From: a virus | Virus record (IMG/VR): IMGVR_UViG_3300033149_006504 | Span: 1-57,790 of that record | DNA length: 57,790 bases | Direction: 5' to 3' (one strand) | Shown here: in pieces, positions 4,974-47,557 of the stretch | Position numbering within the stretch: the stretch's first letter is position 1 | Layout of the letters: the number at the start of each line of letters is the position of its first letter | Program-made: the position numbers and the translations under genes | The notes under the pieces: model-generated | Seen by the model: only the letters and a program-made list of their open reading frames with translations | What the model was told of the DNA's origin: nothing | Databases searched by the model: none

Positions 4974-5267
4974 TTGCCTCTCCTCTATTTTGTTTTAACA
5001 GCCTATGGTCTAACTCAGTTGATCTGCTATGCCAAGATTTTTAATAAAATCCGACCAAGTGGTCATTTTTGGACATGTCCAATGTGCATAGGATTTTGGG
5101 TGGGGATACTTTTATGTGGCATAAACCCATGGACAGAACTATTTATATTTGAATTAACCGCTGTAAATCTATTTATTTGTGGATGCATAAGTTCTGGTAC
5201 TTCATATGTATTGAACATGCTTTTTGGAGACCGGGGTATTAACCTCGTCATAAGGGAGAAAAAATAA
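4974..5267 (+). CDS. Small membrane protein, DUF1360-like
   Basis: A 97-residue hydrophobic protein with about three membrane segments (near residues 2-20, 35-52 and 55-80) and the motif WTCPMCIGFWVG, which resembles the CPxCxGFW signature of phage DUF1360 proteins. The predicted start is TTG at 4974; no ATG is available near the N-terminus and the ribosome site is weak. It would sit in the host inner membrane; function unknown. The reading frame is the same as that of the prohead protease downstream, separated by TAA at 5265 and 25 sense codons. An ACTATTTATAT stretch at 5138-5148 inside the gene resembles the late-promoter motif. Confidence 0.7.
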   Translation: MPLLYFVLTAYGLTQLICYAKIFNKIRPSGHFWTCPMCIGFWVGILLCGINPWTELFIFELTAVNLFICGCISSGTSYVLNMLFGDRGINLVIREKK

Positions 5268-5342
5268 TGTTTAGAAGGTGGATGCTACGAGGGGTTCGAC
5301 GCTGTAAAAACGGTTGTTGACCACTTTAAAAAGGATAATAAA

Positions 5343-5960
5343 ATGAGTAAAGTTTTACTACGAGAATACTATGCCCTCTGTGAGGGCGGCACCTGTCAAG
5401 ATTTGTTAACAGAGGCTGAGAAAATAGATATACAGAAGAACGGATCCCTGTATTTAACGGGTTTGATGCAATGTGCCGCCAAACCAAACGGAAATATGAG
5501 AATATATCCAGAAAATATTTTAGCTCGTGAGGTCCAAAATTATAAAAAATTAGTTAATGAAAATCGTGCTCTTGGCGAACTGGATCATCCGGATGATTCA
5601 GTCATCAATTTAAAGAATGCTTCGCATATTGTAACAAACATCTGGATGGAAGGTCCAGAAGTTAAGGGTACTGTCAGGGTACTTAATACACCATCGGGAA
5701 AAATCCTTCGCTCTTTAGTCGAAGGCGGCTGCCAGCTGGGCATCTCGTCTCGTGGCCTCGGCTCTGTCCGGGAAATGTCTGATGGGTGTGTCGCAGTGGA
5801 AGATGATTTCCAGCTTATTTGTTTTGATTTCGTCTCCGAGCCATCAACACCAAATGCATTTATGAACTTGCAGGAAGGCAAGAAATATAAAGAGCCAAAC
5901 ATTTTTACCAAGGCCGATAGAATTAATCGAGCCTTGAATAATATCTTGGGTGATAAATGA
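5343..5960 (+). CDS. Prohead maturation protease, gp21-like
   Basis: Serine protease of the herpesvirus-assemblin/T4 gp21 type that processes the prohead scaffold and capsid protein before packaging. The 205 residues match the family length. The putative catalytic His is in ALGELDHPDD (near residue 80) and the nucleophilic Ser in LGISSRGLGSV (near residue 138). The C-terminal SEPSTPNAF stretch is also typical. It lies between the portal and the capsid genes, and the next gene overlaps its end by 4 nt. Substrates here are expected to be the scaffold at 12130, the capsid protein at 13163 and any packaged internal proteins. Confidence 0.9.
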   Translation: MSKVLLREYYALCEGGTCQDLLTEAEKIDIQKNGSLYLTGLMQCAAKPNGNMRIYPENILAREVQNYKKLVNENRALGELDHPDDSVINLKNASHIVTNIWMEGPEVKGTVRVLNTPSGKILRSLVEGGCQLGISSRGLGSVREMSDGCVAVEDDFQLICFDFVSEPSTPNAFMNLQEGKKYKEPNIFTKADRINRALNNILGDK

Positions 5961-6382
5961 AAAAAAATGAATTACAAAAAATCTTAAAACCCCTCATCAA
6001 AGAATGTATCAAAGAAGTAATCTTTGAAGATGGTGTCCTGTCTGGAATAATCTCCGAGGTTGTCCAAGGAATAGGCCAACAAAGAATCGTTGAAACCGTT
6101 GAATCAAAACGGCCAGAGCCTGACTTCTCAAGAAGCCAGCGCATCGAACTCCAAGAAGAATCGAGACTTCAAATGGAAGAAAAAAAGAGAAAATTAGAAG
6201 AGTCAATGGGCGGCGGCTTCAAAGGAATTTTTGAAAATGTAGACCCAATTTCGAATGGTGGTTCAACAAGAGAATCCAAAACAAAAGGCCCGCTTTCAGC
6301 ATATGCACCAAACGATGCTGGTGTGGATATTTCCGCCATAATGTCTTTGGGTGGAGCGAAAATATGGAAAAATATGAGCTAG
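5957..6382 (+). CDS. Unknown head-cluster protein with N-terminal amphipathic helix
   Basis: A 141-residue protein translationally coupled to the protease (ATGA overlap). It starts MKKNELQKILKPLIKECIKE, the same kind of charged amphipathic helix found at the start of the proteins at 4735 and 53095. The middle (about residues 50-85) is a Glu/Arg-rich helix likely to form a coiled coil, and the C-terminus is Gly/Ser-rich. No family was recognised. Coupling to the protease and the coiled coil suggest a prohead core component, unproven. Confidence 0.72.
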   Translation: MKKNELQKILKPLIKECIKEVIFEDGVLSGIISEVVQGIGQQRIVETVESKRPEPDFSRSQRIELQEESRLQMEEKKRKLEESMGGGFKGIFENVDPISNGGSTRESKTKGPLSAYAPNDAGVDISAIMSLGGAKIWKNMS

Positions 6383-6459
6383 TTTTTACATCCACTCGTG
6401 GCAAGAGTCTTTAATATTCCGCATCTGCTGATATAAAAAGCAAAAAAACACATTTGAGA

Positions 6460-6471
6460 TAGTATTTATAT
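6460..6471 (+). promoter_or_regulatory. Candidate late promoter (variant)
   Basis: AGTATTTATAT, one mismatch from the ACTATTTAT motif repeated before other structural genes, lies about 20 nt before the ATG at 6491. A GGAAGAGGG ribosome-binding stretch follows. It is in the only sizeable gap between the head cluster and the fibre genes. Confidence 0.5.
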
Positions 6472-6490
6472 GGAAGAGGGTTCCTGAATA

Positions 6491-9400
6491 ATGTCAAGGT
6501 TTAGACCGAGCAGAAATTATGTTAGTGGTAAGGTTGTATTCGATGGTGGACCAGTTGACATAACCGGAGACCTTGTAGTTTCGGGCACGATTACAGCAAA
6601 TCAATATAACGTAAATGTTGTCAATACCAATGTCAGCCACATAGACATGGATGGTTCTACAAAATTTGGTGATACTCCGGACGATACTCATCAATTTACA
6701 GGGTCCGTATTTATTAATGGCCCGATCTCCGCCAGCTCGTTTGTGGGTCCGATCTCCGCCACCCCCGCAGGGGCGGATACCCAAGTCCAGTATAATGATG
6801 CTGGCTCATTCGGCGCCGACACAGATTTTGTTTGGAATAAAACAACGAATACACTGACGGTCACAGGTGATATTACTGCTTCGGCAAATATTTCCGGCAC
6901 ATTCTTTTATGGAGACGGCTCCAACTTAACAAATCTGCCAGAAGGCACACCGGCAGGATTAGATACACAAATACAATTTAACAATGCAGGCACTTTTGGC
7001 GCCACAGCGGACTTGACTTGGGATGGCACAAATCTGTCTTCTTCAACCATCGTCCCGAATGCAACAACAACATATGATTTGGGATCCACAGATTTAAGCT
7101 GGAATACTCTCTATACTGACAGTGTTATTGGAGACCTACAGGGTGCAGTACTATTTGATGCCCGTAACGACGAAGGGGATGCGATATCTAAAGGTCAGGC
7201 AGTTTATATAAATGGTATATCCGGCCAAACACCGACTGTCGCACTGGCTGCATGTGATGATCCGAATAAAATGCCAGCTTTTGGTTTGGCTGCCACCGAT
7301 GCCGCTGACTCTGCCACAGTTCAAATCGTAACATTTGGAAGTATTTCCAACCTTAACCTTACAGCTTTATATGGGCAGGTATTTACAGAAGGAGACACTG
7401 TTTACATCCAGACGGGTTCTGGTGGAACTTCTGGGAGTTTAACACCCCTTGTTCCCACTGGATCAGACCATCTGATACAAAATTTAGGAATAATAGTTAG
7501 AGACGGCGGCGGCGGCGATGGGCAGATTAAAGTCGGTGGTGCCGGCAGAACAAATGCGACTCCGAATTTAGACAAGGGCTATCTATTTATAGGCAATGAT
7601 TCCGACCAATCAGTTCAAGATAACACACTATTTGTCTCTTCGTCTGCCGGAAAGGTTGGTATCAACAATCTAAATCCAACACATACCTTAACAGTATCTG
7701 GCGATTTCAGTGCCTCTCTTAATGTCTCTGCTTCTGCCTTTTATGGTGATGGGTCAAATTTAACCGGTATAGAAGTACCCCTTTTGGTTGGAAACTCCCT
7801 TTTTGTTGATGGCATTAATGGAAATGATGGCACTGGAACTAGGGGCGACAAATCACAACCGTATTTGACGATATCCTCGGCAATTGCAGCTTCAATCGCG
7901 GGCGATGCAATTTATGTCACTCCAGGGGACTATCCTGAAACCTCTTTGGCAATACCCGCAGGCCGAGCCTTATTTTCGCAGGGAGGCTATGCACAAACCT
8001 CTATCGGCATAACATCCTCGGCCACGGATATTATCACAACAGTTGACGATACTTGGATCGAGGGATTCACTGTCCATGTTCCAACCGGCTCTTCAAATGC
8101 GGGCATCCGCTATACCGGTACCGGTGGAACTATGCAGGCTTACTCCATGGCTTTTTCTGGCGATGGGGCTAGTGGGCAAGGGGATGGTTTCGTAAAAACT
8201 GGGACAGGCAAGGTAATTGGATCCGAAATTAGATTGGTTAAAGGCGGATTGAGTTCCATTATCAGGGTAGATCAGGGAGTCATGGCATTTGAATCGATTC
8301 ATGTTCCGTCCGCCTCTGGTGATATCACAAATGTCGCCCTTGCCGAAGGTACAGGGCGCGCCCAATTAATCAATTTTAACGCCGGGAATTCAAATGTTGT
8401 CAATGCAATGACCGTTTCTGGTTCCGCTACTGCAATTTGTCTAAGTGTAAATTGGTTTAATATCCAAAATGGGCTTAATATCCAGCAAGATGGGGTGAAT
8501 GTGGAGATAAATGGCGGAAAGATCCAACCTTCCGCATATGCTGTCACAATGAATAACTCTGTAACCTATACCAGTGCTTCGGTCATCTCTCTAACAAATA
8601 TCAATTCCCACCCCGATTTCAATTTTCCTCCGTCTGCTCTCAATGCTCAATTCGAGATAACATTTGCAACTACCTCAAATACTGATCATGATGCTGCCGA
8701 GAATTTATTTGGCACCGATTTCGTCGTAGGATTCCCAGAAAAAGGATCCGCAATGGCCATTGGCAACGGATCTTCATATGCTTCTGGGATAAAAGTATAT
8801 ACCAGTGACGGAACAGATACTACAACAACAACTGGATCTTTGATTGATGTCACAACTTCGGCATCTTCGATTGTTGGTTCGCCATTTACTTTTCAGGGAG
8901 GATCACCCGATCATTGCATATATTTTGGTTCGACAAGAAAGGATGTAGATTCAAATCCACTTAAATATTATGGGATCAATGTTGATACATCCGTTGGTTC
9001 GTTGACTGGTGCCTATGTATACGAGATCTGGAACGGGTCGGCATGGTCCGATATAGATTATCAATGCACTTCTGTGGATGCTGGCTATCGGTATGCCAAC
9101 AACCCATTTATGCGAACAGATAGCGAGGAATTCATCAGATTTGGACTCGACGACGATACAACCTGGGCTATTTCTACGATCGGTGGCGATGCCGCATACT
9201 GGACCCGCTGTAGGATAGTTACCTCTGCTAGTCTACCACAGTTTGAAAAATGGTGGGTGACCCCAACACACCTTTCTATTAGTGAAGCTGGTGTGAGACA
9301 GTCACACGGTGGTGCTATCTGGCAGGTGGAACTTGGTGCTTCCGGAAATGTTTTTGGTGAATCTGGCGGAGTCGTCGGGGCTAATATCCCTGTCGGGTCA

Positions 9401-17117: not shown

Positions 17118-17951
17118 ATGGCTGACGAAGAAAATAAATGGACGAAACCCTCTAATCCTCCGCCACCTCTTTTTCTAGGCGAAAGAGAGAGAAATCTTGT
17201 CAAGCAGGTCAATGACGAGCTTATCGAGAGGGTAATAGGCCAAGCAATTACTTATTTACCAATCTCTATGGAGAGATCAAATTTTCACCCACTCTATGGG
17301 GAGGCGATAGAAAAGTCATTTTTACCACCAATTCGAGTATATGCTTTGGTGGAATTTGAAAGTAAAACAACAATAACAACAGATTATGGTATCGATAAAG
17401 ATTATTCAATCATCGTTCGTTTTCATAACCGCAGACTCCACGAGGATCAAAATTTATTCATACGAGAAGGGGATTATGTTCAGTATGGCACTTCTTTTTT
17501 CGAAATAGTCACACTTACTGAAGACAGAGACTTGTTTGGCCAAGTTGACCACCGATTCCAGCTTATCGCCAAGTGCATAAAAACAAGAAGAGGGTTAATA
17601 AACCTGGACATCTTGCCTACCGCTACTGTAGCGGCCCTCACTGATAGCTACGAGGCAGAAGTTGTTCCCACCTTATCTCCCGCATCAATTCCAATAACAA
17701 GTGTTGTTCGGCTTATATACTGTGAGGATGCCATCGTGGATATTTCTTCGGGAACTTCTCTAAATTCTTTTCTTGGTGCCCCAATAACTTTATCTCTAGA
17801 GACTGCGGCCATCTATCTAAATGGACTGAGGCAGGAATTGACCGATAGTCCTATAACCGGAGAATATTATATTGTTTCTGGCGAACTCTACAGCTCCTTT
17901 GACATTTCAATTGGCCAACGCCTGACATTAGAGGTCTTGACATTAGTATGA
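17118..17951 (+). CDS. Neck protein, gp14-like
   Basis: A 277-residue protein containing ITYLPISMERSNFHPLYGEA and then FLPPIRVYALVEFE (about residues 45-80), the same layout as the VPR...LLGEDP...YLE segment of T4 gp14, followed by a beta domain IIVRFHNRRL...REGDYVQYG. T4 gp14 is 256 residues. The C-terminal 110 residues are Ser/Thr-rich. Its TGA overlaps the start of the DUF444 gene by 4 nt, which ties that non-structural operon to virion gene expression. Confidence 0.68.
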   Translation: MADEENKWTKPSNPPPPLFLGERERNLVKQVNDELIERVIGQAITYLPISMERSNFHPLYGEAIEKSFLPPIRVYALVEFESKTTITTDYGIDKDYSIIVRFHNRRLHEDQNLFIREGDYVQYGTSFFEIVTLTEDRDLFGQVDHRFQLIAKCIKTRRGLINLDILPTATVAALTDSYEAEVVPTLSPASIPITSVVRLIYCEDAIVDISSGTSLNSFLGAPITLSLETAAIYLNGLRQELTDSPITGEYYIVSGELYSSFDISIGQRLTLEVLTLV

Positions 17952-19153
17952 GTATTTTCAAAGAACATAAATCAATAGCAGATCGCTCCGCAACAGACAG
18001 AAAAAGACACAAGCAAAAAATAGATAAAGCACTCAGGGAGGGGTTAAAGGGTGTGATTGCTGAAGAATCCATCATAGGTCAAAGTGGCAAAAAGAAGGTA
18101 AAAATTCCAGTTAAGGGTGTCAGGGAATACCAATTTGTTTATGGGGACAACAAAAACAACAAAAAAGCGGGTTCAGCTGGCGATAAAAAAATCAAAAGAG
18201 GGCAGATCTTAAGAAAGGGCGGAGGAAAATCAAAACAAGCAGGCAAAAAAGGATCCCAGGACCCAGGAGAAGAATATTATGAAGTGGAGGTTACATTAGA
18301 GGAGCTAGCGGAGTTGCTCTTCACAGACCTTGAGCTACCTGATCTTGAAAAAAAGAAATTTAGATATATAAAGACCCAAAAACTGAAGAGGCGCGGATTT
18401 AGAAAGAAAGGCATGCGATCACGCCTTTCAAAAAAAGAAACTATTAAGAGAAAAATAAGAAGAAAGAAGAGGGCCGTTGCCGCAGGCACCTATGATCCGG
18501 ATGGCGAAGAGAGATTCCCTTTCCACGAAGACGATTTAAAATATAAACATATGAAATTGAAGCCAGAAGAAAATAATTCTGCAGTCATCTTCTTCTTAAT
18601 GGATGTTTCCGGCTCAATGACGAAAGACAAGAAATACATCGCCAGAAGTTTTTATTTTTTATTGTATCAGTTTCTTCGATACAAATACGATAACATAGAG
18701 GTTGTTTTTATTTCACATTCGACAGAAGCAAAAGAGGTCAGCGAAGATGATTTCTTCAAAAAGGCAACCAGCGGAGGGACCTTGATGTCTACTGCATTAG
18801 AATTAGAAAAAGAGATAATAAATAAAAGATATCACCCATCCAGCTGGAATATATATACTTTTTATTCTGGTGACGGAGAAAACTGGTCCTACGATGACGA
18901 AAAAACAATAAGATTGTTTTCAGAACTAAAAGAACTAAATCAAATGATGTGCTATGCTGAAATAGACCCATATTCGGTGGGAGAAACCGATTTGTCGTTT
19001 TTGTCAAGATCTTTTAATTATAATGTTAGTGAAGCGAGCAAAATGTGGATGAAAATCAATGCCGTCCTGGGTGATAGTTTTAAGAAAGTAAAACTTACCA
19101 AACCAGAACACATTTGGCCATCATTCCGTGAATTATTCGGGGGAAACCCGTGA
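17948..19153 (+). CDS. DUF444 / YeaH-YhbH family VWA protein
   Basis: A 401-residue homologue of E. coli YeaH and B. subtilis YhbH. Residues 11-42 show the family start (ADRSATDRKRHKQKID, then IAEESII). A long Lys/Arg-rich middle (80-180) follows, then a VWA-like domain with a MIDAS metal site: DVSGS (Asp219, Ser221, Ser223), Thr278 in SGGT, and Asp309 in GDGENW. All metal-site residues look intact. In bacteria this protein is encoded with the PrkA kinase/AAA+ protein and linked to stress survival or sporulation; its biochemistry is poorly known. Here it overlaps the neck gene upstream and the SpoVR gene downstream by 4 nt each. Length matches cellular proteins (390-427), so it is not a remnant. 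Confidence 0.93.
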   Translation: MSIFKEHKSIADRSATDRKRHKQKIDKALREGLKGVIAEESIIGQSGKKKVKIPVKGVREYQFVYGDNKNNKKAGSAGDKKIKRGQILRKGGGKSKQAGKKGSQDPGEEYYEVEVTLEELAELLFTDLELPDLEKKKFRYIKTQKLKRRGFRKKGMRSRLSKKETIKRKIRRKKRAVAAGTYDPDGEERFPFHEDDLKYKHMKLKPEENNSAVIFFLMDVSGSMTKDKKYIARSFYFLLYQFLRYKYDNIEVVFISHSTEAKEVSEDDFFKKATSGGTLMSTALELEKEIINKRYHPSSWNIYTFYSGDGENWSYDDEKTIRLFSELKELNQMMCYAEIDPYSVGETDLSFLSRSFNYNVSEASKMWMKINAVLGDSFKKVKLTKPEHIWPSFRELFGGNP

Positions 19154-20451
19154 AAGATTGGTCCATAAAAGAATTAGAGCATTGGGACACAGAAATTTGC
19201 AAAATTGCAAAAGAGAAATATAATCTAGATTGGTTCCCTATCGAGTACGAAATCTTAAATTATCATGAGATGATCGGTGCCATGGCATATTCCGGCCTAC
19301 CGTCACATTACCGTCATTGGTCTTTTGGAAAATCTTTCGAAAGAACAATAACTAGATACAATCTTGGGATGGAGGGTTTGCCGTATGAGATGATCATCAA
19401 TGCGAATCCTTCAATCGCTTACCTCATGCTTGAGAACCCGATGAGTACCCATTTATTAACAATGGCTCACTGTGTGGGACATTCAGATTTTTTTAAAAAT
19501 AACAGAATGTTTAAATATACGAATCCGGCCGACATTCTAGCAAGTTTCAAATCCGCCGCAAAAAGAGTTAAGTCATATATAGAGGACCCAAATATTGGAA
19601 TAGAGAAAGTGGAGAGAATCTTAGATGCATGCCATTCTATTCAATATCAGGTGCCCCGCACACCGGGAATATTTAGAATGAGCGAGCATGAGACTAAAAA
19701 GCTGATTATTAAAAAAGCTAAGGGGAAGATCGATTTATCTTCCGGTCTGGTAAATAAAAATTATAATCTTTTGGATTTTATCAAGAAGAACGCCAGAAAT
19801 CTGGAAGATTGGCAGCAAGACTTAATTGAGATGGTGGAGAGAAGATCTTCATATTTCATCCCACAGGCTCAAACAAAGATCATGAATGAGGGTTGGGCAG
19901 TCACGATTCATGAAAAAATAATGAAAGATTTAAAGCTTGCAGATAAATACTATTTAGCATTCTTAAAAACACACAATCAGGTTGTGAGACCTATAGTCGG
20001 AAGAGTGAATCCTTATCATCTGGGATATATGATTTTTAAAAAAATTGAAGAAAAATATGGATTTGAGGAGAGTCTTCTTGTCAGGGAAACCCACGACGAT
20101 GAGTCCTTTATTCGAAAATATCTAGATGAAGACTTATGTAGAGAACTGAACCTATTCAGCTATTCTTACAGCAATAAACAGAAAAATTATGCCATTAATG
20201 ACATTTCCGATAAAGAAGGGTGGAAAAGCGTTAGGTCCGCCCTAATTAGTAATGTAGGGTTGGGGGGAGTTCCTATCGTTTATGTTAAAGACCATGATAA
20301 AAAGACAAATACACTTTATATCAAGCATGAGCATGATGGTAGGGATTTAGATATCCCGTATGCAAACAAGGTCTACAGCCAGATTTGTTATTTATGGGGC
20401 GATGACGTCGATTTTACAGCAATTATAGATGAGGAACTATGGGAATTTTAA
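19150..20451 (+). CDS. SpoVR / YcgB family protein
   Basis: A 433-residue protein of the SpoVR family (B. subtilis SpoVR 468, E. coli YcgB 510). Family landmarks are YHEMIGAMAYSGLPSHYRHW (38-57), FGKSFE (59-64), INANPSIAYLMLENP (83-97) and the His/Cys-rich AHCVGHSDFFKNN (106-118). QYQVPRTPG follows near 155. SpoVR is needed for spore cortex formation in Bacillus, while YcgB is a stress-regulated protein of unknown activity. The start is GTG, overlapping the DUF444 stop by 4 nt. The residues and length look complete. Located between DUF444 and PrkA it completes the three-gene set conserved in bacteria. Confidence 0.93.
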   Translation: MKDWSIKELEHWDTEICKIAKEKYNLDWFPIEYEILNYHEMIGAMAYSGLPSHYRHWSFGKSFERTITRYNLGMEGLPYEMIINANPSIAYLMLENPMSTHLLTMAHCVGHSDFFKNNRMFKYTNPADILASFKSAAKRVKSYIEDPNIGIEKVERILDACHSIQYQVPRTPGIFRMSEHETKKLIIKKAKGKIDLSSGLVNKNYNLLDFIKKNARNLEDWQQDLIEMVERRSSYFIPQAQTKIMNEGWAVTIHEKIMKDLKLADKYYLAFLKTHNQVVRPIVGRVNPYHLGYMIFKKIEEKYGFEESLLVRETHDDESFIRKYLDEDLCRELNLFSYSYSNKQKNYAINDISDKEGWKSVRSALISNVGLGGVPIVYVKDHDKKTNTLYIKHEHDGRDLDIPYANKVYSQICYLWGDDVDFTAIIDEELWEF

Positions 20452-20452
20452 A

Positions 20453-22393
20453 ATGAAACATTCAAAAACAAATAAATTTTTAGAGATCGCAGAGGGGCAT
20501 AAAAAAAGCAGCAAAAGAGAGAAGTTTTCTGGCACTTTTTCTGATTTTTTGGAATTGTTGGAAGACGATAAAGATATCGCGATATTGGCCCACAAACGCC
20601 TATATAGCACGATCGTTGAAAAGGGAATAACAAGATTGTCAGAAGAAGATTCCCGCTGTAATAACCTATTTAATGGAGAAGCCCTCAAAACTTATGATTA
20701 TTTTCAAGATAGGTTTTTTGGAATGGAGCGACCTCTCGCTAAAATTATGAGATATTTGCACTCTGCATCGATGAGGGGAGAAGAGAGTAAGCAAGTTTTA
20801 CTCCTCCTCGGACCCGTCGGAGCCGGTAAATCGGCACTAGTTGAACACATTAAGCGCGCCTTGGAGAATTCTGGCAAACTATATGCTCTTGGGGACTGCC
20901 CGATACAAGAAGATCCACTCCATCTTGTTCCTCGCTCCCTCAGAGAAAACTTTAAAGATATCTATGGAATAAAGATCGAAGGAGACTTATGCCCGGTTTG
21001 TCGTCACAACCTATTGGAAGTACACGGCGGAGATTATACAAAATTTCCAGTAAAAGAAACTTCCTTTTCAATTCGGGGCCGTCGCGGCATCGGAGTTGTT
21101 CCGCCTATGGATGCCAACACTCAAGACACAAGCATCCTGATAGGGTCAGAAGACATTTCTAAATTAGATCTATATCCAGAGGACGACCCTCGTGTTCTGT
21201 CCCTTAACGGGGCCTTTAATGTGGGAAATCGTGGAATCGTGGAATTCGTAGAGGTCTTCAAAAACGAAATAGAGTTCTTGCATACAATGATTACAGCAAC
21301 TCAAGAAAAAGCTGTCCCGTCTCCTGGTAAAGGGGCGATGATTTACTTTGATGGGGTTATCCTTGCCCACTGTAATGAAGCAGAATGGGTTAAATTCAAG
21401 TCTGAAAATACAAACGAGGCAATTTTAGATAGAATAGTTCGAGTAAACGTTCCATATTGTTTGGAGGTTAGTGAAGAACAAAAGATCTATCAAAAACTTC
21501 TTGACGAATCAGATTTCGATGCACATATCGCACCGCACACACTTGAACTTGCGGCCATGTTCTCTGTACTCAGTCGGCTAAAATCTTCCAACAAAGTTGA
21601 CCCCCTCACTAAAATGAAGATCTATGATGGGCAGGAAATCGTCGAAAAAGGATATATCAAAAAAGTGGATATTAATGATTTGAGGGACGAAGTACGCGAC
21701 GAGGGAATGACAGGCATCTCGACAAGATTCATTATGAAATCTATAGATGCAGCTCTCGCTGATTCCGAAAGGAACATGGTTACACCGATCTCTATTCGGG
21801 ATGCTCTCGTCAAACAAGTTAAAGAACAGGTCGTTGTAGAAGAGCTGAGGGAGAAATATTTATCCTTTCTCCAAAAAGAGCTTCACGATGAATATCTCAA
21901 AATATTGGAAACAGAAATCACGAAAGCCTTTGTTTCTGCATACCAAGAACAAGCAGAATCGCTCTTTGACAATTATCTCGATCATGCGGAATCATATGTC
22001 AATGGGACCAAGGTTAAAGACAAGGTAACTAATGAAGAAATGGTAGCTGATGAACCTTTCCTGTGCTCAATCGAAGAACAAATCGGAATAGTCGGTTCCG
22101 CAAGAGAAAACTTTAGGGCAGATATCACCGCATACATGTTTGCAAAATTGAGAAAAGGCGAAAAGATTGACTGGACATCATATGGTCCTCTTAAAGAGGC
22201 CATCGAAAATAAGCTGTTAACTTCGGTACGAGATATCTCCAGAATCGTCACGAAATCCAAGTCGAGAGATAAGAAGCAGCAAGGAAAATACAATGAAATG
22301 GTGAAAACCCTTATCGAAAATTATGGTTACGACGAGAACTCTGCTACGGAAATTATCAAGTATGCATCGAATAATCTATGGAGAGACAGTTAA
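20453..22393 (+). CDS. PrkA / YeaG AAA+ serine protein kinase
   Basis: A full-length PrkA homologue of 646 residues from ATG 20453 (E. coli YeaG is 644). An in-frame ATG at 20429 would add 8 residues and overlap SpoVR by 23 nt; I prefer 20453 because it follows the SpoVR stop by one base. The AAA+ domain has Walker A GPVGAGKS (120-127), a CPVC pair (180-183) and RGIVEFVEVFKNE (260-272), the Walker B-like region. The C-terminal part, with RFIMKSIDAAL and a helical kinase-like module, is also conserved. PrkA has been described both as a serine kinase and, in Bacillus, as an ATP-dependent protease. A terminator follows directly. Confidence 0.95.
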   Translation: MKHSKTNKFLEIAEGHKKSSKREKFSGTFSDFLELLEDDKDIAILAHKRLYSTIVEKGITRLSEEDSRCNNLFNGEALKTYDYFQDRFFGMERPLAKIMRYLHSASMRGEESKQVLLLLGPVGAGKSALVEHIKRALENSGKLYALGDCPIQEDPLHLVPRSLRENFKDIYGIKIEGDLCPVCRHNLLEVHGGDYTKFPVKETSFSIRGRRGIGVVPPMDANTQDTSILIGSEDISKLDLYPEDDPRVLSLNGAFNVGNRGIVEFVEVFKNEIEFLHTMITATQEKAVPSPGKGAMIYFDGVILAHCNEAEWVKFKSENTNEAILDRIVRVNVPYCLEVSEEQKIYQKLLDESDFDAHIAPHTLELAAMFSVLSRLKSSNKVDPLTKMKIYDGQEIVEKGYIKKVDINDLRDEVRDEGMTGISTRFIMKSIDAALADSERNMVTPISIRDALVKQVKEQVVVEELREKYLSFLQKELHDEYLKILETEITKAFVSAYQEQAESLFDNYLDHAESYVNGTKVKDKVTNEEMVADEPFLCSIEEQIGIVGSARENFRADITAYMFAKLRKGEKIDWTSYGPLKEAIENKLLTSVRDISRIVTKSKSRDKKQQGKYNEMVKTLIENYGYDENSATEIIKYASNNLWRDS

Positions 22394-25378: not shown

Positions 25379-28300
25379 ATGAGTAAACGTACAAGATTAA
25401 AGGGAATAGATCAGGTAGACATCGCGCTATCTGGGGTTTCCGATTATGAGACTTATGCAGATGCTGTATTAGCAGGAGACAGCGGCCTAGCTGACTTATC
25501 GATGGACCTTTTCGATATTAAGGCCCTCGCCCTGAGTGCTAGTGTCGCAGACTATCAGGCTGCAGCTAAAAATCATGCCATCATCAACTATGGCATGCTT
25601 AATTATGCAGTCGGAATTGAAGAGGCTCGTGCCCTCGCAGCAGAAGCTGCAATTCAAGCTGATGTTGATGCAAACGAGGCTGCAGCACTTGCAGCTCGCA
25701 ATGCAATTCAAGCTGATGTTGATCAAAACGAAGCCGATGCAGATGCTGCAATCGCCGCACTCCAAGCCGATGTTGATGGAAACGAAGCTGATGCAGATGC
25801 TGCAATCGCCGCACTCCAAGCCGATGTTGATGGAAACGAAGCTGATGGTGATTCTGATCGTGCTGCTATCCGCAGCGAGATCGCCGCAGCTAAGGTTATT
25901 TCTGATGCTCTTCATGCTGCTATCCAGAGTGATGTTGACCAGAACGAATTAGACTCCGATGCAGCAGAAACATCACTCACGACTCGTCTGGCAGCAGAAG
26001 AAGTCGCTCGTGCCGCTGATGTCGATGCCGAAGAAGCTCGTGCCATCGCCGCTGAAGCAGTGCTTCAAGCTGATATTGATCAAAATGAAGTGGATGCTGA
26101 TATCGCAGCAGCATCACTCACCACACGCGTAGCCGCCGAAGAAGCCGCACGTGCATCTGCAGTTAGTTCTGTTGATGTTCGCTCTGCAGCAGAAGAAGCA
26201 GCTCGTGCCGCAGGTGATTCCTCTCTTCAAGTCAGACTGGCTGCAGAAGAGGGTTCCCGAGCCTCGGGTGATTCCTCACTCCAGACTCGCTTATCCGCAG
26301 AAGAAGCAAGAATGGACGCAGTCCTTCTCTCTTCCTCCGCAGACAAAGACAGTTTCGCTGAAATCGTTTCTTTGATCAACGCTGTTGATCTCACAAACGA
26401 CAATGACTTGGCAGCCGCCGTCCTTAGTTTGGCAAACGTCGATTCCGCAGAAGAAGCCGCAAGACTTGCTGCTGATGCCTCACTCACAACCCGTGTTGGT
26501 GTTGAAGAGGCTGCAAGAGCTGCAGCCGACTCCTCGCTCACCACTCGTTTGGGTGTTGAAGAAGCGGCCCGTATTGCTGATGTAGATGCAGAAGAACTTC
26601 GTGCATTAGCTGCTGAAGCAGCACTTCAGGCAGACATTGATGCAAATGAAGCTGCCTCCGATGCCGCTGAAGCTTCACTCACCACTCGCTTGAGTGCTGA
26701 AGAAGTTGCAAGAGCTGCTGCAATTAGCTCTTCCGACATTCGTGTCGCTGCTGAAGAAGCTGCAAGAGCTGCTGCTGACTCCTCACTCACCACTCGCTTG
26801 AGTGCTGAAGAGTCCGCTCGTGTTGCAGATGTTGCTGCACTTCAAGCCGATGTCGATCAGAACGAATCTGATTCTGATTTCGCCGAAGCATCACTCACCA
26901 CTCGTTTGGGTGCTGAAGAAGTTGCAAGAGCTGCTGCAGATGCTTCTATCGTCGTCAAGCACGACGCAGAACTCGCTGCACTTCAAGCTGATGTGGACGG
27001 AAACGAATCCGACGCAGATGCTGCCATTGCTGCCCTTCAGGCCGACGTGGACGGAAACGAAGCTGATGCAGATGCTGCAATCGCTGCACTTCAAGCTGAT
27101 GTGGACGGAAACGAAACTGATTCCGATGCCGCAGAAGCATCACTCACCACCCGCTTGGGTGTTGAAGAAGCTGCTCGTGCCACGGCCGATGCATCTATAG
27201 TCACAAAGCATGATGCAGAGATGGCTGCCCTTCAGGCAGATGTTGATGCAAATGAAGTGGCCTCCGATGCTGCTGAAGCCTCACTCACCACTCGTTTGGG
27301 TGCTGAAGAGGTTGCAAGAGCTGCAGCTGATGGATCCTTGACAACTCGTCTTGGTGCCGAAGAAGCTGCAAGAGCTGCTGCAATTTCTACCCTGGAATCA
27401 AAGCATGATCTTGAGGATGCTGCAGAACAAACGGCACGTGCCGCTGCAGATGCATCTTTAAACTCTAAAATTGATGCTGAATCTGCCGCACGAATTATCG
27501 ATGTTGATGCAGAAGAAGCTCGCGCCCTAGCAGCAGAAGCTGCATTGCAAGCTGATATCGACCAGAACGAAACTGATTCTGATGTTGCTGAAGCATCACT
27601 CACCACTCGTCTCGGTGTCGAAGAGGCTGCAAGAGCAGCCGCTGATGGTTCTATTGACACTCGTATGGGTGTTGAAGAAGCAGCAAGAGCAGCTGCAGAT
27701 ACCTCACTGTCTTCACGTGTACTCGCTGAAGAAGGTGCAAGGGCTTCAGGCGATTCCTCGCTCACTACTCGTTTGGGTACTGAAGAGGCAAGAGTAGATG
27801 CTATTTTGCTCGCCGCCGATGCAGATAAAGACAGCTTCGTTGAGATCGTTTCTCTGATCAATGCTGTTGATCTTACTAACGACGATGCACTCGCGGCCGC
27901 TGTACTTAGCCTCGCAAATGCTGACTCTGCAGAAGAAGCAGCAAGAATTGCTGCAGATGCTTCTTTAACCACTCGTTTGGGTGCTGAAGAAGTTGCAAGA
28001 GCTGCTGCAGATACCTCACTGACGACTCGTGTCGCAGCAGAGGAGGCCGCACGTGCTGCTGCTGATGCATCGATCGATGTTGTCAACGCTGCAATGCAGG
28101 CTGACATTGATCAGAACGAAACTGATTCTGATGTTGCTGAGGCATCACTCACGACTCGTCTCGGTGTCGAAGAGGCTGCAAGAGCTGCCGCTGATGGATC
28201 CTTGACAACTCGTCTTGGTGCTGAAGAGTCCGCAAGGGCCGCAGCTGATGGATCTATCGACACTCGTATGGGTGTTGAAGAGGCCGCAAGAGCTGCAGCT

Positions 28301-28786
28301 GATGGTTCTTTAACCACTCGTTTGGCTGCAGAAGAAGTCGCTCGTGCTGCCGATGTCGATGCTGAGGAGGCCCGTGCATTAGCTGCCGAGGCTGTACTCC
28401 AAGCTGATATCGATCAGAACGAAGCAGACGGAGATGCTGCAATGGCTGCAGAAATCGCTGCTCGCCTCCTTCAAGAAGGAAAGGTAAGCACAGACATCGT
28501 AGCTATGAACACCAAATGGCAAATGCATGTATATCCAATCCAGGCAGCCGATATCGCACCAGGAATGGTTTTGAGTTTCGCTGCAAACGGACACGATCCA
28601 ATGTCGCAAGTTGCTTATGTATCCATTAACGGTATGATTATGGCACCAATCGTCGGCGGTTCGGGTGATTACACTTTGAACTTGGACGGAAGCGGTGATG
28701 TTGACGGTATTACTTTCGACATTCAGATTTATGCTGGCGATCGTATTGCTTACTACGGTGAGAAAGCTATCACACTTCTGTCGTAA
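25379..28786 (+). CDS. Long alanine-rich repeat fibre protein
   Basis: An 1135-residue protein with a short N-terminal domain (1-80), about 940 residues of Ala/Glu/Asp-rich repeats, and a C-terminal beta domain of about 100 residues (from near 1035, ending DIQIYAGDRIAYYGEK). Two 18-residue units dominate: AEEAARAAADSSLTTRLG and ADADAAIAALQADVDGNE. A DKDSFxEIVSLINAVDLT segment occurs twice, about 495 residues apart, marking a large internal duplication. The repeats should form a long, probably trimeric coiled-coil rod, with the C-terminal domain as tip. It lies between the LamG protein and the sheath gene, so a tail-fibre shaft is the likeliest role. A terminator follows. Confidence 0.8.
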   Translation: MSKRTRLKGIDQVDIALSGVSDYETYADAVLAGDSGLADLSMDLFDIKALALSASVADYQAAAKNHAIINYGMLNYAVGIEEARALAAEAAIQADVDANEAAALAARNAIQADVDQNEADADAAIAALQADVDGNEADADAAIAALQADVDGNEADGDSDRAAIRSEIAAAKVISDALHAAIQSDVDQNELDSDAAETSLTTRLAAEEVARAADVDAEEARAIAAEAVLQADIDQNEVDADIAAASLTTRVAAEEAARASAVSSVDVRSAAEEAARAAGDSSLQVRLAAEEGSRASGDSSLQTRLSAEEARMDAVLLSSSADKDSFAEIVSLINAVDLTNDNDLAAAVLSLANVDSAEEAARLAADASLTTRVGVEEAARAAADSSLTTRLGVEEAARIADVDAEELRALAAEAALQADIDANEAASDAAEASLTTRLSAEEVARAAAISSSDIRVAAEEAARAAADSSLTTRLSAEESARVADVAALQADVDQNESDSDFAEASLTTRLGAEEVARAAADASIVVKHDAELAALQADVDGNESDADAAIAALQADVDGNEADADAAIAALQADVDGNETDSDAAEASLTTRLGVEEAARATADASIVTKHDAEMAALQADVDANEVASDAAEASLTTRLGAEEVARAAADGSLTTRLGAEEAARAAAISTLESKHDLEDAAEQTARAAADASLNSKIDAESAARIIDVDAEEARALAAEAALQADIDQNETDSDVAEASLTTRLGVEEAARAAADGSIDTRMGVEEAARAAADTSLSSRVLAEEGARASGDSSLTTRLGTEEARVDAILLAADADKDSFVEIVSLINAVDLTNDDALAAAVLSLANADSAEEAARIAADASLTTRLGAEEVARAAADTSLTTRVAAEEAARAAADASIDVVNAAMQADIDQNETDSDVAEASLTTRLGVEEAARAAADGSLTTRLGAEESARAAADGSIDTRMGVEEAARAAADGSLTTRLAAEEVARAADVDAEEARALAAEAVLQADIDQNEADGDAAMAAEIAARLLQEGKVSTDIVAMNTKWQMHVYPIQAADIAPGMVLSFAANGHDPMSQVAYVSINGMIMAPIVGGSGDYTLNLDGSGDVDGITFDIQIYAGDRIAYYGEKAITLLS
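25619..28440 (+). repeat. Degenerate tandem repeats coding for 18-residue units
   Basis: Imperfect 54-nt repeats in one frame. The clearest copy is an exact 54-nt tandem duplication at 25739-25792 and 25793-25846. A larger duplication places related DKDSF-containing segments near 26343-26450 and 27826-27935. Long minus-strand frames here are by-products of the Ala/Glu codon bias. Confidence 0.85.
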
Positions 28787-42830: not shown

Positions 42831-44015
42831 TTGCTATTTCAAACCCTGGATGATAAAAAGGAGTGTGTGGGGATTTATCTTAATGGGGAGCTGTCTTTTA
42901 ACGAGACCCTCCCAGAGAGCCTAACTCACACTTGGTCCTACTCTTCTTTCTTGGGAGATCGTGATATTCAGTATGCCAGCTTGTACTGCGGCGGAAAGTC
43001 CCTTGAGGAACTATGCCCAGAGTCTCTGAGAGACCGCTGGTGCAATGCAAAAAAGAAGTTTGAGGCTTATTTGAAGTCCTTTTCAATAGCTCGTGTATCG
43101 CTAAATGAGAACTGTTTTTATGATTTAGTTCCTGAAAAGTTTCTTTTGGAATTTTGCTATGTAAAGGACTTGATATGTCAATATATTTTCGAGAACTATG
43201 AAAAGCCGAAAAATTACGATTACCTTTTGGGGCTGGCCAAGGGGCTGGAAAATATCAAACATAGAAAGCTGAATATAAACAGAAACAACCTCTCACTTTA
43301 TAAAGCAAAACACAGGAAGTTTAAACACAAATTAAACAATCTAAAACACTATTGCCGGTTTAACATGTGTGGCACCAGGACTGGAAGATTAACAACCTTC
43401 AAAAATAGCTTTCCAGTCCTAACCCTGGATAAACAATTCCGCTGTGTCGTAGAGCCTCACAATGATTATTTCGTAGAGCTTGATTTCAACGCAGCAGAGC
43501 TGAGGACACTGATCGCTCTACAAGGGAAACCCCAACCCAAGGGAGACATCCACGAATGGAACATCCAGAATGTCTTTCGAGGCTTGGGAACGAGAGACGA
43601 GGCCAAGAAAAGAATATTCGCTTGGCTATACAACCCTGAGAGCGATGATTATCTTTGCAGCCGTGCTTATGATAGAGAATCCGTGGTACAAAAGTACTTC
43701 ACTCAGGGTCAAGTGACGACCTTTTGGAACAAGGTCATCCCCTCGGAAGAGCGAACAGCCTTAAATTATATTATCCAATCAACATGCGCTGAAAATGTTT
43801 TGAGACAAATGATTAAAGTATCTAATTACTTAAAAGGATGTAAATCATATGTTGCTTTTCCGATCCATGATTCTATTATATTGGACTTTTCGCTTGAAGA
43901 CCGAGAAAACCTCTCAGAGATAATACACATCTTTTCCAATACGGAATTGGGAAAATTCTTAGTCAATGTTAGTGTCGGGAAGAATTTTGGCAACCTTAAA
44001 AAGCTGGAGGTTTAA
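42831..44015 (+). CDS. Family A DNA polymerase, polymerase domain only
   Basis: A 394-residue protein starting at TTG after GAGGA. Family A landmarks in order: TGRLTTF (184-190, as in TGRLSS of Pol I), motif A ELDFNAAELR (216-225, Asp218), an RDEAKKRIFAWLY motif B (255-267, Lys260), ERTALNYIIQSTCAENVLR (307-325), and motif C HDS (346-348, Asp347). The usual motif C HDE has Ser for Glu here. No 3'-5' exonuclease domain is present; the N-terminal 170 residues replace it and are too short. Rhodothermus phage RM378 splits its polymerase and exonuclease between genes, so a separate exonuclease may lie outside the window. It is the likely replicative polymerase. Confidence 0.85.
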   Translation: MLFQTLDDKKECVGIYLNGELSFNETLPESLTHTWSYSSFLGDRDIQYASLYCGGKSLEELCPESLRDRWCNAKKKFEAYLKSFSIARVSLNENCFYDLVPEKFLLEFCYVKDLICQYIFENYEKPKNYDYLLGLAKGLENIKHRKLNINRNNLSLYKAKHRKFKHKLNNLKHYCRFNMCGTRTGRLTTFKNSFPVLTLDKQFRCVVEPHNDYFVELDFNAAELRTLIALQGKPQPKGDIHEWNIQNVFRGLGTRDEAKKRIFAWLYNPESDDYLCSRAYDRESVVQKYFTQGQVTTFWNKVIPSEERTALNYIIQSTCAENVLRQMIKVSNYLKGCKSYVAFPIHDSIILDFSLEDRENLSEIIHIFSNTELGKFLVNVSVGKNFGNLKKLEV

Positions 44016-44891
44016 ATGAACATCATAGGTCTTGGCAGTGCTGGGTGCGGAATCGCTGAAGCCTTTTCGCAGTATCCTCAATATAAAATATTTAAAATAG
44101 ATGTTGACATTTCTGGTGATAGGTGCTATAATGTACCTAAGTTTAAACAAGCAGAGGAGTATGAGCAATATAAATTTCCAAAATTGAAATCATTTTTTAA
44201 GGGAATATCTGGGGAAACCCTGTTTATCATCGGAGGAGGGGGAAAAATATCTTGTGCCTCCTTAAGGATTCTTGAAATTATCAAAAAGTTACCCATATCA
44301 ATATTATACATAAAACCAGAAGAGGGATTACTGAATCCATCTCAGTGCCTACAAAACCGTGCTGTATTCGGTGTGATGCAGGAATATTCAAGATCTGCCG
44401 TATTTGAAAAGATGTATATTGTCTCTAATGACTCTCTAGATTCCATCGCAGATGGTGCACCAGTAATAGGATATTACGATAAACTCAACGAAATACTTGT
44501 TTCCGCCTTGCACATGATAAATGTATTTTATAATACAGAACCAGTATTTGGTAAAATTTCCAAACTCAAAGACACCCATCGCCTGATAACAATTGGCATG
44601 TTCGATATTGAAAAGAATAAAGAAAAAATGTTTTTTTCCCTTGACAGACCCCGCCATAAATGTTATATTTATAGTATAAACGAAAACAAGTTGAGGTCAG
44701 ATAACAAATTATTTAAAAAAATAAAAAATTTAGTAAAATCAAAGACACAAGAAAATCTTAATATAGAGTATGTGATATACTCAAATGATTGGGATTACGA
44801 CATGGGCTATGTAGTGGAGGCTAGTCCATATATTCAATTAGAAGAACTAAACAAACCCAGCGGGACGAAAGATTTGTCGTCCCGACTATAG
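44016..44891 (+). CDS. Divergent FtsZ/tubulin-like protein
   Basis: A 291-residue protein beginning immediately after the polymerase stop. Three segments align in order with FtsZ: GLGSAGCGIAEAF (5-17; FtsZ GxGGGGxN T1 loop), LFIIGGGGKISCASLRILEI (69-88; the GGGTGTG T4-loop strand and helix), and KMYIVSNDSLDSI (132-144; the LIVIPNDRLL strand of FtsZ), followed by a helix like DKLNEILVSALHMINVF. The second GTG of the signature is replaced by KIS and I see no T7-loop NxDxxE, so GTP hydrolysis and typical polymerisation may be lost. An NAD-binding Rossmann protein is the main alternative. It lies among replication genes, and two promoter-like sequences lie inside it. Confidence 0.6.
   Translation: MNIIGLGSAGCGIAEAFSQYPQYKIFKIDVDISGDRCYNVPKFKQAEEYEQYKFPKLKSFFKGISGETLFIIGGGGKISCASLRILEIIKKLPISILYIKPEEGLLNPSQCLQNRAVFGVMQEYSRSAVFEKMYIVSNDSLDSIADGAPVIGYYDKLNEILVSALHMINVFYNTEPVFGKISKLKDTHRLITIGMFDIEKNKEKMFFSLDRPRHKCYIYSINENKLRSDNKLFKKIKNLVKSKTQENLNIEYVIYSNDWDYDMGYVVEASPYIQLEELNKPSGTKDLSSRL
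44104..44132 (+). promoter_or_regulatory. Sigma70-consensus sequence inside the FtsZ-like gene
   Basis: TTGACA, 17 bp, TATAAT: perfect consensus on the + strand. It is coding sequence, so chance is possible, but the match is complete. The next complete gene downstream is the SSB gene. Confidence 0.5.
44641..44669 (+). promoter_or_regulatory. Sigma70-like promoter upstream of the SSB gene
   Basis: TTGACA, 17 bp, TATATT, about 260 nt before the SSB ATG and within the preceding gene. Confidence 0.5.
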
Positions 44892-44927: not shown

Positions 44928-45698
44928 ATGGCATTAGACATCTCAAAAATTCGAGCACGACTCGATACTGTAAAAAACAACGGCAAAGCGGGAGGCTCGT
45001 TTTGGCGTCCAAAAGACGGCACACAAGTCATCCGCATTGTTCCAACAGCGGACGGTGATCCTTTCAAGGACTATTGGTTCCACTACAATCTGGGGCCAGA
45101 GCAGCGAGGGGGACTTCTTTGTCCGAAAAAGAATCATGGAGATAGTTGTCCCATCTGTAATTTCAAAGATCAACTTTGGAAAGAGTTTAACGAAACTCAA
45201 GATCAAGATACCATGAAGCTGGCCAAGGATTTATCTCCACGGCAAAGATTCTTCTCACCAGTGATGGTGAGGACAGAGGAGTCTGAGGGCATCCGAATTT
45301 GGGGATATGGTAAAGAGGCGTATACTTCGCTCCTTAACCTTGTTTTAAATCCCGAATACGGAGATATTACAGATATTGATGATGGGACAGACCTGACCTT
45401 AACATATGGAAAGCCCCCAGGTGCAACCTATCCTAAAACTACCCTGACTCCCCGTCGTCGCACAGGTCCACTTTGCGATGATATTGTTGGCGGAGACGAA
45501 GAATGCACTCGATTGCTGGAAAATATTCCAAAGTTTGATACTCTTTTCGTGATGAAGAGTAAGGAGGAGGTACAAGCTGCTCTTGATGGCTTTATTTCGT
45601 CGCTGGAACCCGACACGGGAAACAGTGCACCAGAGCAACTGCAGGCGGAAGAGACATCAGATGTCCTTGCAGCATTTAATGAACTGACTGGCAATTAA
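44928..45698 (+). CDS. Single-stranded DNA-binding protein, gp32-like
   Basis: A 256-residue protein. The N-terminal KAGGSFWRPKDG leads into an OB-fold core. The zinc ligands match T4 gp32 almost exactly: His52-X12-Cys65-X8-Cys74-X2-Cys77 (T4: H-X12-C-X9-C-X2-C). The C-terminal 40 residues are acidic (EPDTGN...EETSD), the usual protein-contact tail. It coats ssDNA and recruits UvsX and the helicase. It is shorter than T4 gp32 (301). GGAG ribosome site; a perfect inverted repeat follows the stop. Confidence 0.9.
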   Translation: MALDISKIRARLDTVKNNGKAGGSFWRPKDGTQVIRIVPTADGDPFKDYWFHYNLGPEQRGGLLCPKKNHGDSCPICNFKDQLWKEFNETQDQDTMKLAKDLSPRQRFFSPVMVRTEESEGIRIWGYGKEAYTSLLNLVLNPEYGDITDIDDGTDLTLTYGKPPGATYPKTTLTPRRRTGPLCDDIVGGDEECTRLLENIPKFDTLFVMKSKEEVQAALDGFISSLEPDTGNSAPEQLQAEETSDVLAAFNELTGN

Positions 45699-45775: not shown

Positions 45776-46339
45776 ATGACAACAGAGACGACAACAGAGA
45801 CGACAACAGCAACCGAAGGATCCACAGCAACCGTTCATTATCGAGGAACTTTGAATGATGGCACTGAATTCGATAATTCCCATACACGCGGTGAACCAAT
45901 TACCTTTACAGTCGGTGCAGGAATGATGATTCCGGGGTTCAATAACGCCGTCACTGGTATGACAACCGGAGAAACCAAAACAGTGACAATTCCTGCAGAA
46001 GAGGCATATGGTCCTGTGAACCCAGAGGCAAAAACTGTGGTTCCTCGATCCAACTTTCCATCGGAGATCGAACTAACTGATGGCATGCCAGTTCCCCTTC
46101 GCACTCCTCAAGGTCGTACCGTTTATGGTCGTATCACGGAGCAACAAGAGGATGCTGTAACGGTTGACCTAAATCATCCGCTGGCTGGGCAGGATCTCCA
46201 GTTTGAGATTGAGCTGGTTTCGGTTACGAGTGGGCCTACTGACACCACCACCGATACAACCACCACTACTGACACCACCACTACTGACACCACCACTACT
46301 GACACCACCACTACTGACACCACCACTACAACAACCTAG
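45776..46339 (+). CDS. SlyD-like FKBP peptidyl-prolyl isomerase
   Basis: A 187-residue protein. The FKBP core is TVHYRGTLNDGTEFDNS (18-35) and MIPGFNNAV (51-59). An insert-in-flap region (about 77-130), and then the SlyD signature NHPLAGQDLQFEIELV (133-148), return to the fold. SlyD-type enzymes are isomerase-chaperones. The start (MTTETTTETTTATE) and the end (repeats of TTDTT) are unusual low-complexity tails. It lies between SSB and UvsX genes and may help fold phage proteins. FKBP genes are rare in phages, which suggests acquisition from a host. Confidence 0.85.
   Translation: MTTETTTETTTATEGSTATVHYRGTLNDGTEFDNSHTRGEPITFTVGAGMMIPGFNNAVTGMTTGETKTVTIPAEEAYGPVNPEAKTVVPRSNFPSEIELTDGMPVPLRTPQGRTVYGRITEQQEDAVTVDLNHPLAGQDLQFEIELVSVTSGPTDTTTDTTTTTDTTTTDTTTTDTTTTDTTTTTT
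46268..46327 (+). repeat. Four exact 15-nt tandem repeats at the FKBP 3' end
   Basis: ACTGACACCACCACT occurs four times in a row (46268, 46283, 46298, 46313), coding for a Thr/Asp tail. Copy number is likely to vary by slippage. Confidence 0.9.
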
Positions 46340-46447: not shown

Positions 46448-47557
46448 ATGGCAAAGAGAACTAAATCGTCTGCTGGAAAACTTTCTATGACAGATATGAG
46501 AAAGATGATTAATAAAAAGGCGGGAATGAATGTCGCCCACAATTTGAAAGAGGAGAACCCTACAGAGGTCACTCAATGGATCCCAACAGGTTCTCGGTGG
46601 CTTGATTCAATTATTTGTCGAGGTCAGCTGGCTGGAATTCCCGTCGGAAAAGTAACAGAAATCGCGGGCCTTGAGTCTACTGGGAAGTCCTATATGGCCG
46701 CCCAAATCGCGGCAAATGCTCAAAAGATGGATATGGATGTTGTTTATTTTGATTCTGAATCTGCCATCGACCCGGACTTTCTAGAAAACACTGGCTGCGA
46801 CCTGGACAGGCTGGTTTATGTTCAAGCAACTTCTGTCGAGTTTGTTTTAGAAACCATGGAAGAGTTACTCGGCTCTGATAATCAAATTCTCTTTATCTGG
46901 GATTCTCTGGCCCTAACCCCTGCAATTTCGGATGTAGAAGGAGACTTTAACCCCCAGTCATCTATGGCGATGAAGGCTCGCATTTTAGCCAAGGGGATGT
47001 CAAAGTTAACTCTAGCTATAGCGAATACTAAGTCCACATTTTTGGTTCTCAACCAGCTAAAGACAAATATCACTCGTTCACCCAGCGAGGCCATGACGAC
47101 TCCGTATGTCACACCCGGAGGCAAGGCTATGATTTATGCATATTCTTTGCGCATCTGGCTCACAGGCCGCAAGGCAAAGGCAAGCTTCGTTTTGGATAGC
47201 AATGGGTTTCGTATTGGATCCGAGGTCAAGGTGAAGCTTGAGAAATCTCGATTTGGAACACAAGGGCGCCGGTGCAACTTCCGTATCCTGTGGGGCGGTG
47301 ACCAAGTCAGCATCCAAGATGATGAGTCTCTGTTCGATGCTGTAAGAGGGTCCGACACAATTCTCCAGTCCGGTGCTTGGTATACCATGATTTTTGAAGA
47401 TGGTAAATCTGAAAAATTTCAAGCTGCAAAGTGGGCGGAGAAGATGAGTACCGAGAAGTTCAGACAAAGAGTATATCAGATTATGGATGAAGAAGTCATT
47501 ATGAAGTTCAACAAACGCGAAGGTAAAGCCGAAGATTATTACGACATCGAAGAATAG
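46448..47557 (+). CDS. uvsX: RecA-family recombinase, UvsX-like
   Basis: A 369-residue strand-exchange protein (T4 UvsX 391). Walker A is GLESTGKS (74-81), the Walker B-like strand is ILFIWDSLAL (near 147), and FLVLNQLK...VTPGGKAM represents the DNA-binding loop and L2 region. The C-terminus is acidic (EDYYDIEE). It works with the gp32-like SSB upstream in recombination-dependent replication. GGCGGAG ribosome site before ATG 46448. Confidence 0.92.
   Translation: MAKRTKSSAGKLSMTDMRKMINKKAGMNVAHNLKEENPTEVTQWIPTGSRWLDSIICRGQLAGIPVGKVTEIAGLESTGKSYMAAQIAANAQKMDMDVVYFDSESAIDPDFLENTGCDLDRLVYVQATSVEFVLETMEELLGSDNQILFIWDSLALTPAISDVEGDFNPQSSMAMKARILAKGMSKLTLAIANTKSTFLVLNQLKTNITRSPSEAMTTPYVTPGGKAMIYAYSLRIWLTGRKAKASFVLDSNGFRIGSEVKVKLEKSRFGTQGRRCNFRILWGGDQVSIQDDESLFDAVRGSDTILQSGAWYTMIFEDGKSEKFQAAKWAEKMSTEKFRQRVYQIMDEEVIMKFNKREGKAEDYYDIEE

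Follow-up and report, generated by a model that had tools for sequence, protein, structure and literature searches.

The closest described relatives of the protein considered here are members of the tubulin/FtsZ superfamily. FtsZ is the cell division GTPase of bacteria and archaea, PhuZ (phiKZ TubZ) is a tubulin of jumbo phages of about 210-320 kb, and TubZ is found on Bacillus plasmids, with chains of 381-410 aa in the structures matched here (2xka, 4ei7). In tubulin, FtsZ and phiKZ TubZ protofilaments, the T7 loop, the base of helix H8 and strand S9 form the subunit interface, and the catalytic aspartate sits in T7 (PMC3678025). Divergent families have also been described, namely FtsZl1 and FtsZl2 (PMC2875224), which are cellular and both carry the GGGTG[ST]G motif, with FtsZl1 lacking a confidently alignable T6-H7 and perhaps filaments, and occurring in vWA/kinase operons with coiled coils. 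In addition, Bacillus phage G encodes a putative FtsZ-like protein, gp138, of 376 aa with clear FtsZ similarity.

Here, we describe a compact protein with a predicted tubulin/FtsZ fold that is encoded next to the DNA polymerase gene of an uncultured virus of bacteria. The window analysed is the whole 57,790-base virus record (IMGVR_UViG_3300033149_006504), which encodes a contractile-tailed phage with terminase, portal, T4-type head protein, sheath, tube and baseplate hub. Its head protein is closest to far-T4 phages (far-T4 literature: PMC7198788) such as Flavobacterium phage immuto, Microcystis phage Mel-JY01 and Rhodothermus phage RM378. The gene (Table 1) is intact, begins on the base after the polA stop codon, and lies in a block encoding PolA, this protein, a gp32-like SSB, FKBP, UvsX, a DnaJ-like ORF, 5' exonuclease, DnaB and a class II RNR. 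Elsewhere, in the structural region, the phage encodes a YeaH-SpoVR-PrkA module, a bacterial stress-response set that is unusual in a phage and possibly a host-takeover or dormancy module.

Table 1. Features of the window and of related loci discussed in the text
Feature	Record	Coordinates	Strand	Remarks
FtsZ/tubulin-fold (predicted) protein gene	window	44016..44891	+	291 aa, ATG start
GGAGG, ribosome-binding-site-like	window	44006..44010	+	5 nt before ATG; overlaps the end of polA, suggesting translational coupling
T1 loop GLGSAGC	window	44028..44048	+	residues 5-11; G5, G7, G10 and C11 96-99% conserved in 209 members
T4 glycine loop GGGGKIS	window	44232..44252	+	residues 73-79; altered tubulin signature
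QEYSRS, end of H5	window	44379..44396	+	residues 122-127
N138 in T6	window	44427..44429	+	guanine-contact position
N158, start of H7	window	44487..44489	+	guanine-contact position
H166-M167 in H7	window	44511..44516	+	family-specific, 99% and 96%
Loop in place of T7 and H8	window	44532..44582	+	17 residues (173-189)
Family A DNA polymerase (PolA)	window	42831..44015	+	394 aa; PF00476 E 1.4e-12; stop codon 44013-44015
gp32-like single-strand DNA-binding protein	window	44928..45698	+	PF08804, phrog_1192
FKBP-type peptidyl-prolyl isomerase	window	45776-46339		between SSB and UvsX; Thr/Asp repeat tail (15-base tandem repeat, 6.3 copies)
UvsX/RecA-like recombinase	window	46448..47557	+	phrog_97 E 2.9e-58
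YeaH (DUF444)-SpoVR-PrkA (YeaG-type kinase) module	window	17948-22393		Pfam E 3e-105, 1e-114, 1e-144
Fibre-like ORF	window	25379-28786		1135 aa; several arrays of a 54-base (18-aa) repeat
ORF between PolA and the tubulin-fold gene	L171, L194, L200, L228, L229 (relatives)	about 5170-5500		~105 aa; motif YNKLVRDxIP
ORF between PolA and the tubulin-fold gene	L232 (relative)	5294-7690		799 aa; no Pfam match; L226 and L227 have a gap of the same size
Small conserved protein in the slot after PolA	L335, L338, L339 (far-T4 relatives)	1346-1801; 4992-5381; 4980-5387		motif HRKKxxNTLYTINALN

A predicted tubulin fold with a loop in place of T7 and H8

The initial annotation proposed a degenerate FtsZ/tubulin-like protein with an altered signature and no T7 catalytic Asp, which might bind nucleotide without normal hydrolysis, and our analysis supports this core claim. 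The T1 and T4 motifs (Table 1) and IVSNDSL (residues 135-141) are more than chance, as G5, G7, C11 and N138 are conserved at 91-99% over 209 distinct members. However, "degenerate" fits the motif and not the gene, which belongs to a well-conserved family and has a dN/dS of 0.08 against its nearest non-identical relative, and so is functional and not decaying.

Sequence-only searches against Pfam, PHROGs and PDB, and tblastn against phage records, gave nothing usable. Pfam PF00091 gave no hit for the window protein and matched only 2 of 37 members, at best with E 0.043, and no FtsZ sequence hit was obtained. Thus, membership of the superfamily rests on structure prediction and profile evidence. 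AlphaFold2 on a 37-row alignment gave a model with pLDDT 90.2 and pTM 0.88 and the tubulin order of elements. In a Foldseek search all 50 top PDB matches were FtsZ or TubZ (prob 1.00, E 1e-12 to 5e-11, TM to query 0.59-0.70, 11-16% identity), rather than an unrelated Rossmann fold, and the best viral matches in BFVD include a phage "FtsZ Cell division GTPase", a phage "Cell division protein" and a phage "Tubulin". Profile-profile comparison (hhalign) with an FtsZ/PhuZ/phage-G alignment places the motifs on T1, T4 and T6, and also aligns H7 (Prob 94.8, E 5.4e-8), whereas the reversed family and PolA each give 0.3. A second model, of a member that has lost the nucleotide pocket (L195), gave pLDDT 92.8 and again matched FtsZ/TubZ (E 5e-13).

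Compared with FtsZ, the predicted protein shares the overall fold of both domains (TM about 0.6-0.7), the T1 G-x-G-x-A-G-C loop, the Asn in T6 and at the start of H7, and the order of elements. It differs in having only 9-14% identity, [GSCA]G[SACG]G-x-[IV]-S in the family in place of GGGTGTG, no T7 NxDxxD, no H8, a hairpin where H9 is expected, and no long C-terminal linker, with only a short low-confidence tail (residues 278-291). Compared with PhuZ, which gave the best single-family profile score (Prob 88) and which has T7 and H8 and forms canonical protofilaments (PMC3678025), the family is PolA-linked, lacks T7/H8, and occurs on large contigs of 155-204 kb; the family profile gives no match in phiKZ at E<=1. 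TubZ of Bacillus plasmids is among the top structural matches, but no par-like context was noticed here; phiKZ PhuZ as a query against plasmids gave no match, so no plasmid TubZ sequences were added to the comparison. The GGGTG[ST]G motif of FtsZl1 and FtsZl2 is absent, and the family profile does not hit gp138 of phage G.

Between H7 and strand S7 there is a loop of 17 residues in 208 of 209 members, with no N-x-D-x-x-D motif and no helix in either model. E or D at position 186 was considered as a displaced catalytic acid, but this was not supported, since it is present in about 70% of pocket-bearing members and also kept in most members without the pocket. Given the role of T7 and H8 in known protofilaments, we infer that standard hydrolysis and standard stacking are unlikely.

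Linkage to the DNA polymerase

A first scan found 44 loci, and a profile scan found at least 558 relatives, of which the best 80 were kept. After five scans, one of them anchored on PolA, we had 209 distinct members; as each scan keeps only the best 80 loci, these counts are samples. None was found among 50,697 phage records, and one was found in 84,980 species genomes. The latter (L117, CP070664.1) is a phage segment with PolA, the tubulin-fold gene, SSB and a shortened UvsX ORF inside a WOR-3 MAG whose assembly lacks the phage major head protein, and is thus an assembly chimera or remnant that we do not use as host evidence. The large contigs share the head protein, mostly at 64-81% identity, so this is a coherent phage group. 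The two far-T4 papers read do not mention FtsZ or tubulin, and no phage tubulin of this kind was found in the literature searched.

To avoid selecting on the gene itself, we scanned for the polymerase alone. Of 67 loci with at least 1,300 bases downstream, 67 carry the tubulin-fold gene: 54 within 0-24 bases of the polymerase match, 10 behind one small ORF, and 3 behind a ~2.5-kb insertion. The PolA-anchored set shares the PolA type of this group, so this result describes this group and not all PolA phages. The order PolA, this gene, gp32, UvsX is kept across members down to 38% identity. The polymerase of the window is too short to hold a standard exonuclease domain and has no tblastn match to phage records at E 0.001, although the profile match is clear. 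A search for a bacterial sliding clamp (PF02767) found none in 12 large contigs, but the T4-type clamp search had no positive control and no argument is built on it.

In the cultured relatives immuto and Mel-JY01 and the uncultured LR756508, the same block has an unrelated 130-151-aa protein after PolA. This protein is absent from 12 large contigs with the tubulin-fold gene (0/12), and the tubulin-fold gene is absent from those three genomes (0/3). The possibility that the two small genes after PolA in immuto are a split copy of the tubulin-fold gene was tested and rejected. Replacement in one operon slot is suggestive of a PolA-linked task, albeit on a small sample.

Coordinated losses of the nucleotide pocket

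By the profile column match, N138 and N158 occupy the positions that, in tubulin and FtsZ, probably contact guanine. Both are Asn in 190 members and both are replaced in 19, with neither lost alone. The 19 also have E or D at G76 in 18 (against 4 of 190) and a changed A9 in 18 (against 12 of 190). Ranking all columns by association with this loss puts 138, 158, 76, 9, 73, 157, 29, 140, 151 and 77 on top, that is T1, T2, T4, T6/H6 and the start of H7, with associated columns also in T5. These are far apart in sequence but meet in the nucleotide site of the tubulin fold. As the Fisher values behind this ranking ignore relatedness, the tree test matters more: on a tree of the polymerase the loss needs six changes, five on supported branches, and in nearly all random pairings the sites change together (sign test 0.0625, the lowest that five pairs allow). 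One further member (L196) first looked pocketless but its contig ends within the gene, and it was set aside.

Pairs without the pocket still have dN/dS of 0.04-0.11, like the rest, so they are working genes. Over both classes together, Q122 and R126 are 100% conserved and Y23, S127 and H166 about 99%. The apparent 100% conservation of QYKIFKID in the first alignment was partly a search artefact, because that peptide was a search pattern; in the PolA-anchored set the stretch varies, with only Y23 invariant and Q22 in 66/71. Nucleotide binding is therefore probably ancestral but dispensable.

Possible roles in the replication module

What might the role of this protein be? We propose, with moderate confidence, that it belongs to a new, compact family (about 275-290 aa) of the tubulin/FtsZ superfamily, a core gene of a group of far-T4-like phages, that acts as a protein-protein adaptor of the PolA/SSB/UvsX replication module. 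This is suggested by its position between polA and the gp32-like gene, the strong conservation of residues outside the pocket, and the repeated loss of the pocket under continued purifying selection. We read the invariant residues outside the nucleotide site as a binding surface for a partner, most simply PolA or the gp32-like protein, with the nucleotide, where present, being a structural or regulatory ligand and not a fuel. There is no direct evidence of contact with PolA, gp32 or DNA, operon position is only association, the adjacent slot also carries other genes in some phages (Table 1), and a non-canonical interface could still polymerise. More tentatively, the protein may have left the cytoskeleton altogether, as a non-filamentous (pseudo)tubulin serving as an essential subunit or adaptor of a viral DNA polymerase complex, with an optional GTP site that has been shed repeatedly. 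Of the roles suggested by the initial annotation, the organisation of replication gains strong contextual support from the PolA linkage.

Three alternatives are, in our view, unlikely, and about equally so. The first is a PhuZ/TubZ-like cytoskeletal protein that forms GTP-dependent filaments to position or move phage DNA. In its favour are the predicted fold, with phage FtsZ/tubulin proteins among the best viral structure hits, the pocket residues conserved in 190 of 209 members, and the location among replication genes. However, it is hard to reconcile with the missing T7/H8 and with 5-6 losses of the pocket while selection stayed strong, and there is no chain similarity to PhuZ beyond the fold (no PHROG or Pfam hit). 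The second is an inhibitor of host cell division that docks on host FtsZ through its intact nucleotide (top) face and, lacking T7/H8, caps the filament. The geometry fits a chain terminator, and some phages do appear to target FtsZ with small proteins. This role, also raised by the initial annotation, is not excluded but has no positive evidence. Takeover genes tend to be variable and early, whereas this one is an obligate partner of PolA in the group examined, the pocketless lineages change the very face that would dock, and identity to FtsZ is low. The third is a guanine-nucleotide sensor or carrier for the replication block (for example, dGTP/GTP-dependent control of polymerase or recombinase), with the sensing dropped in some lineages. 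The pocket is conserved as a unit, the operon includes a class II ribonucleotide reductase, and the ~105-aa ORF of some relatives may be a MazG/COG4997-like NTP pyrophosphatase, although the L171 copy has no Pfam hit. A repeatedly dispensable pocket, however, argues that sensing is not the core role. Finally, a convergent Rossmann-like fold misread from glycine-rich loops, for which the lack of Pfam/PHROG hits for the window protein and weak TrkA_N hits in seven members could be cited, is very improbable, since both domains align to FtsZ/TubZ in two models, the profile match stands against its controls, and the co-lost columns are those that line the tubulin nucleotide pocket.

Phage tubulins known so far are filaments that move or centre DNA. 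Here is a large environmental family with the same predicted fold in which the filament-forming and catalytic element is replaced by a short loop in 208 of 209 members and the nucleotide site is optional, yet the gene is a constant neighbour of the replicative polymerase. If it is a replication factor, it would be, to our knowledge, the first tubulin-fold protein with a role in the DNA synthesis machinery, and the recurring pocket losses give a natural experiment for separating the roles of nucleotide and fold.
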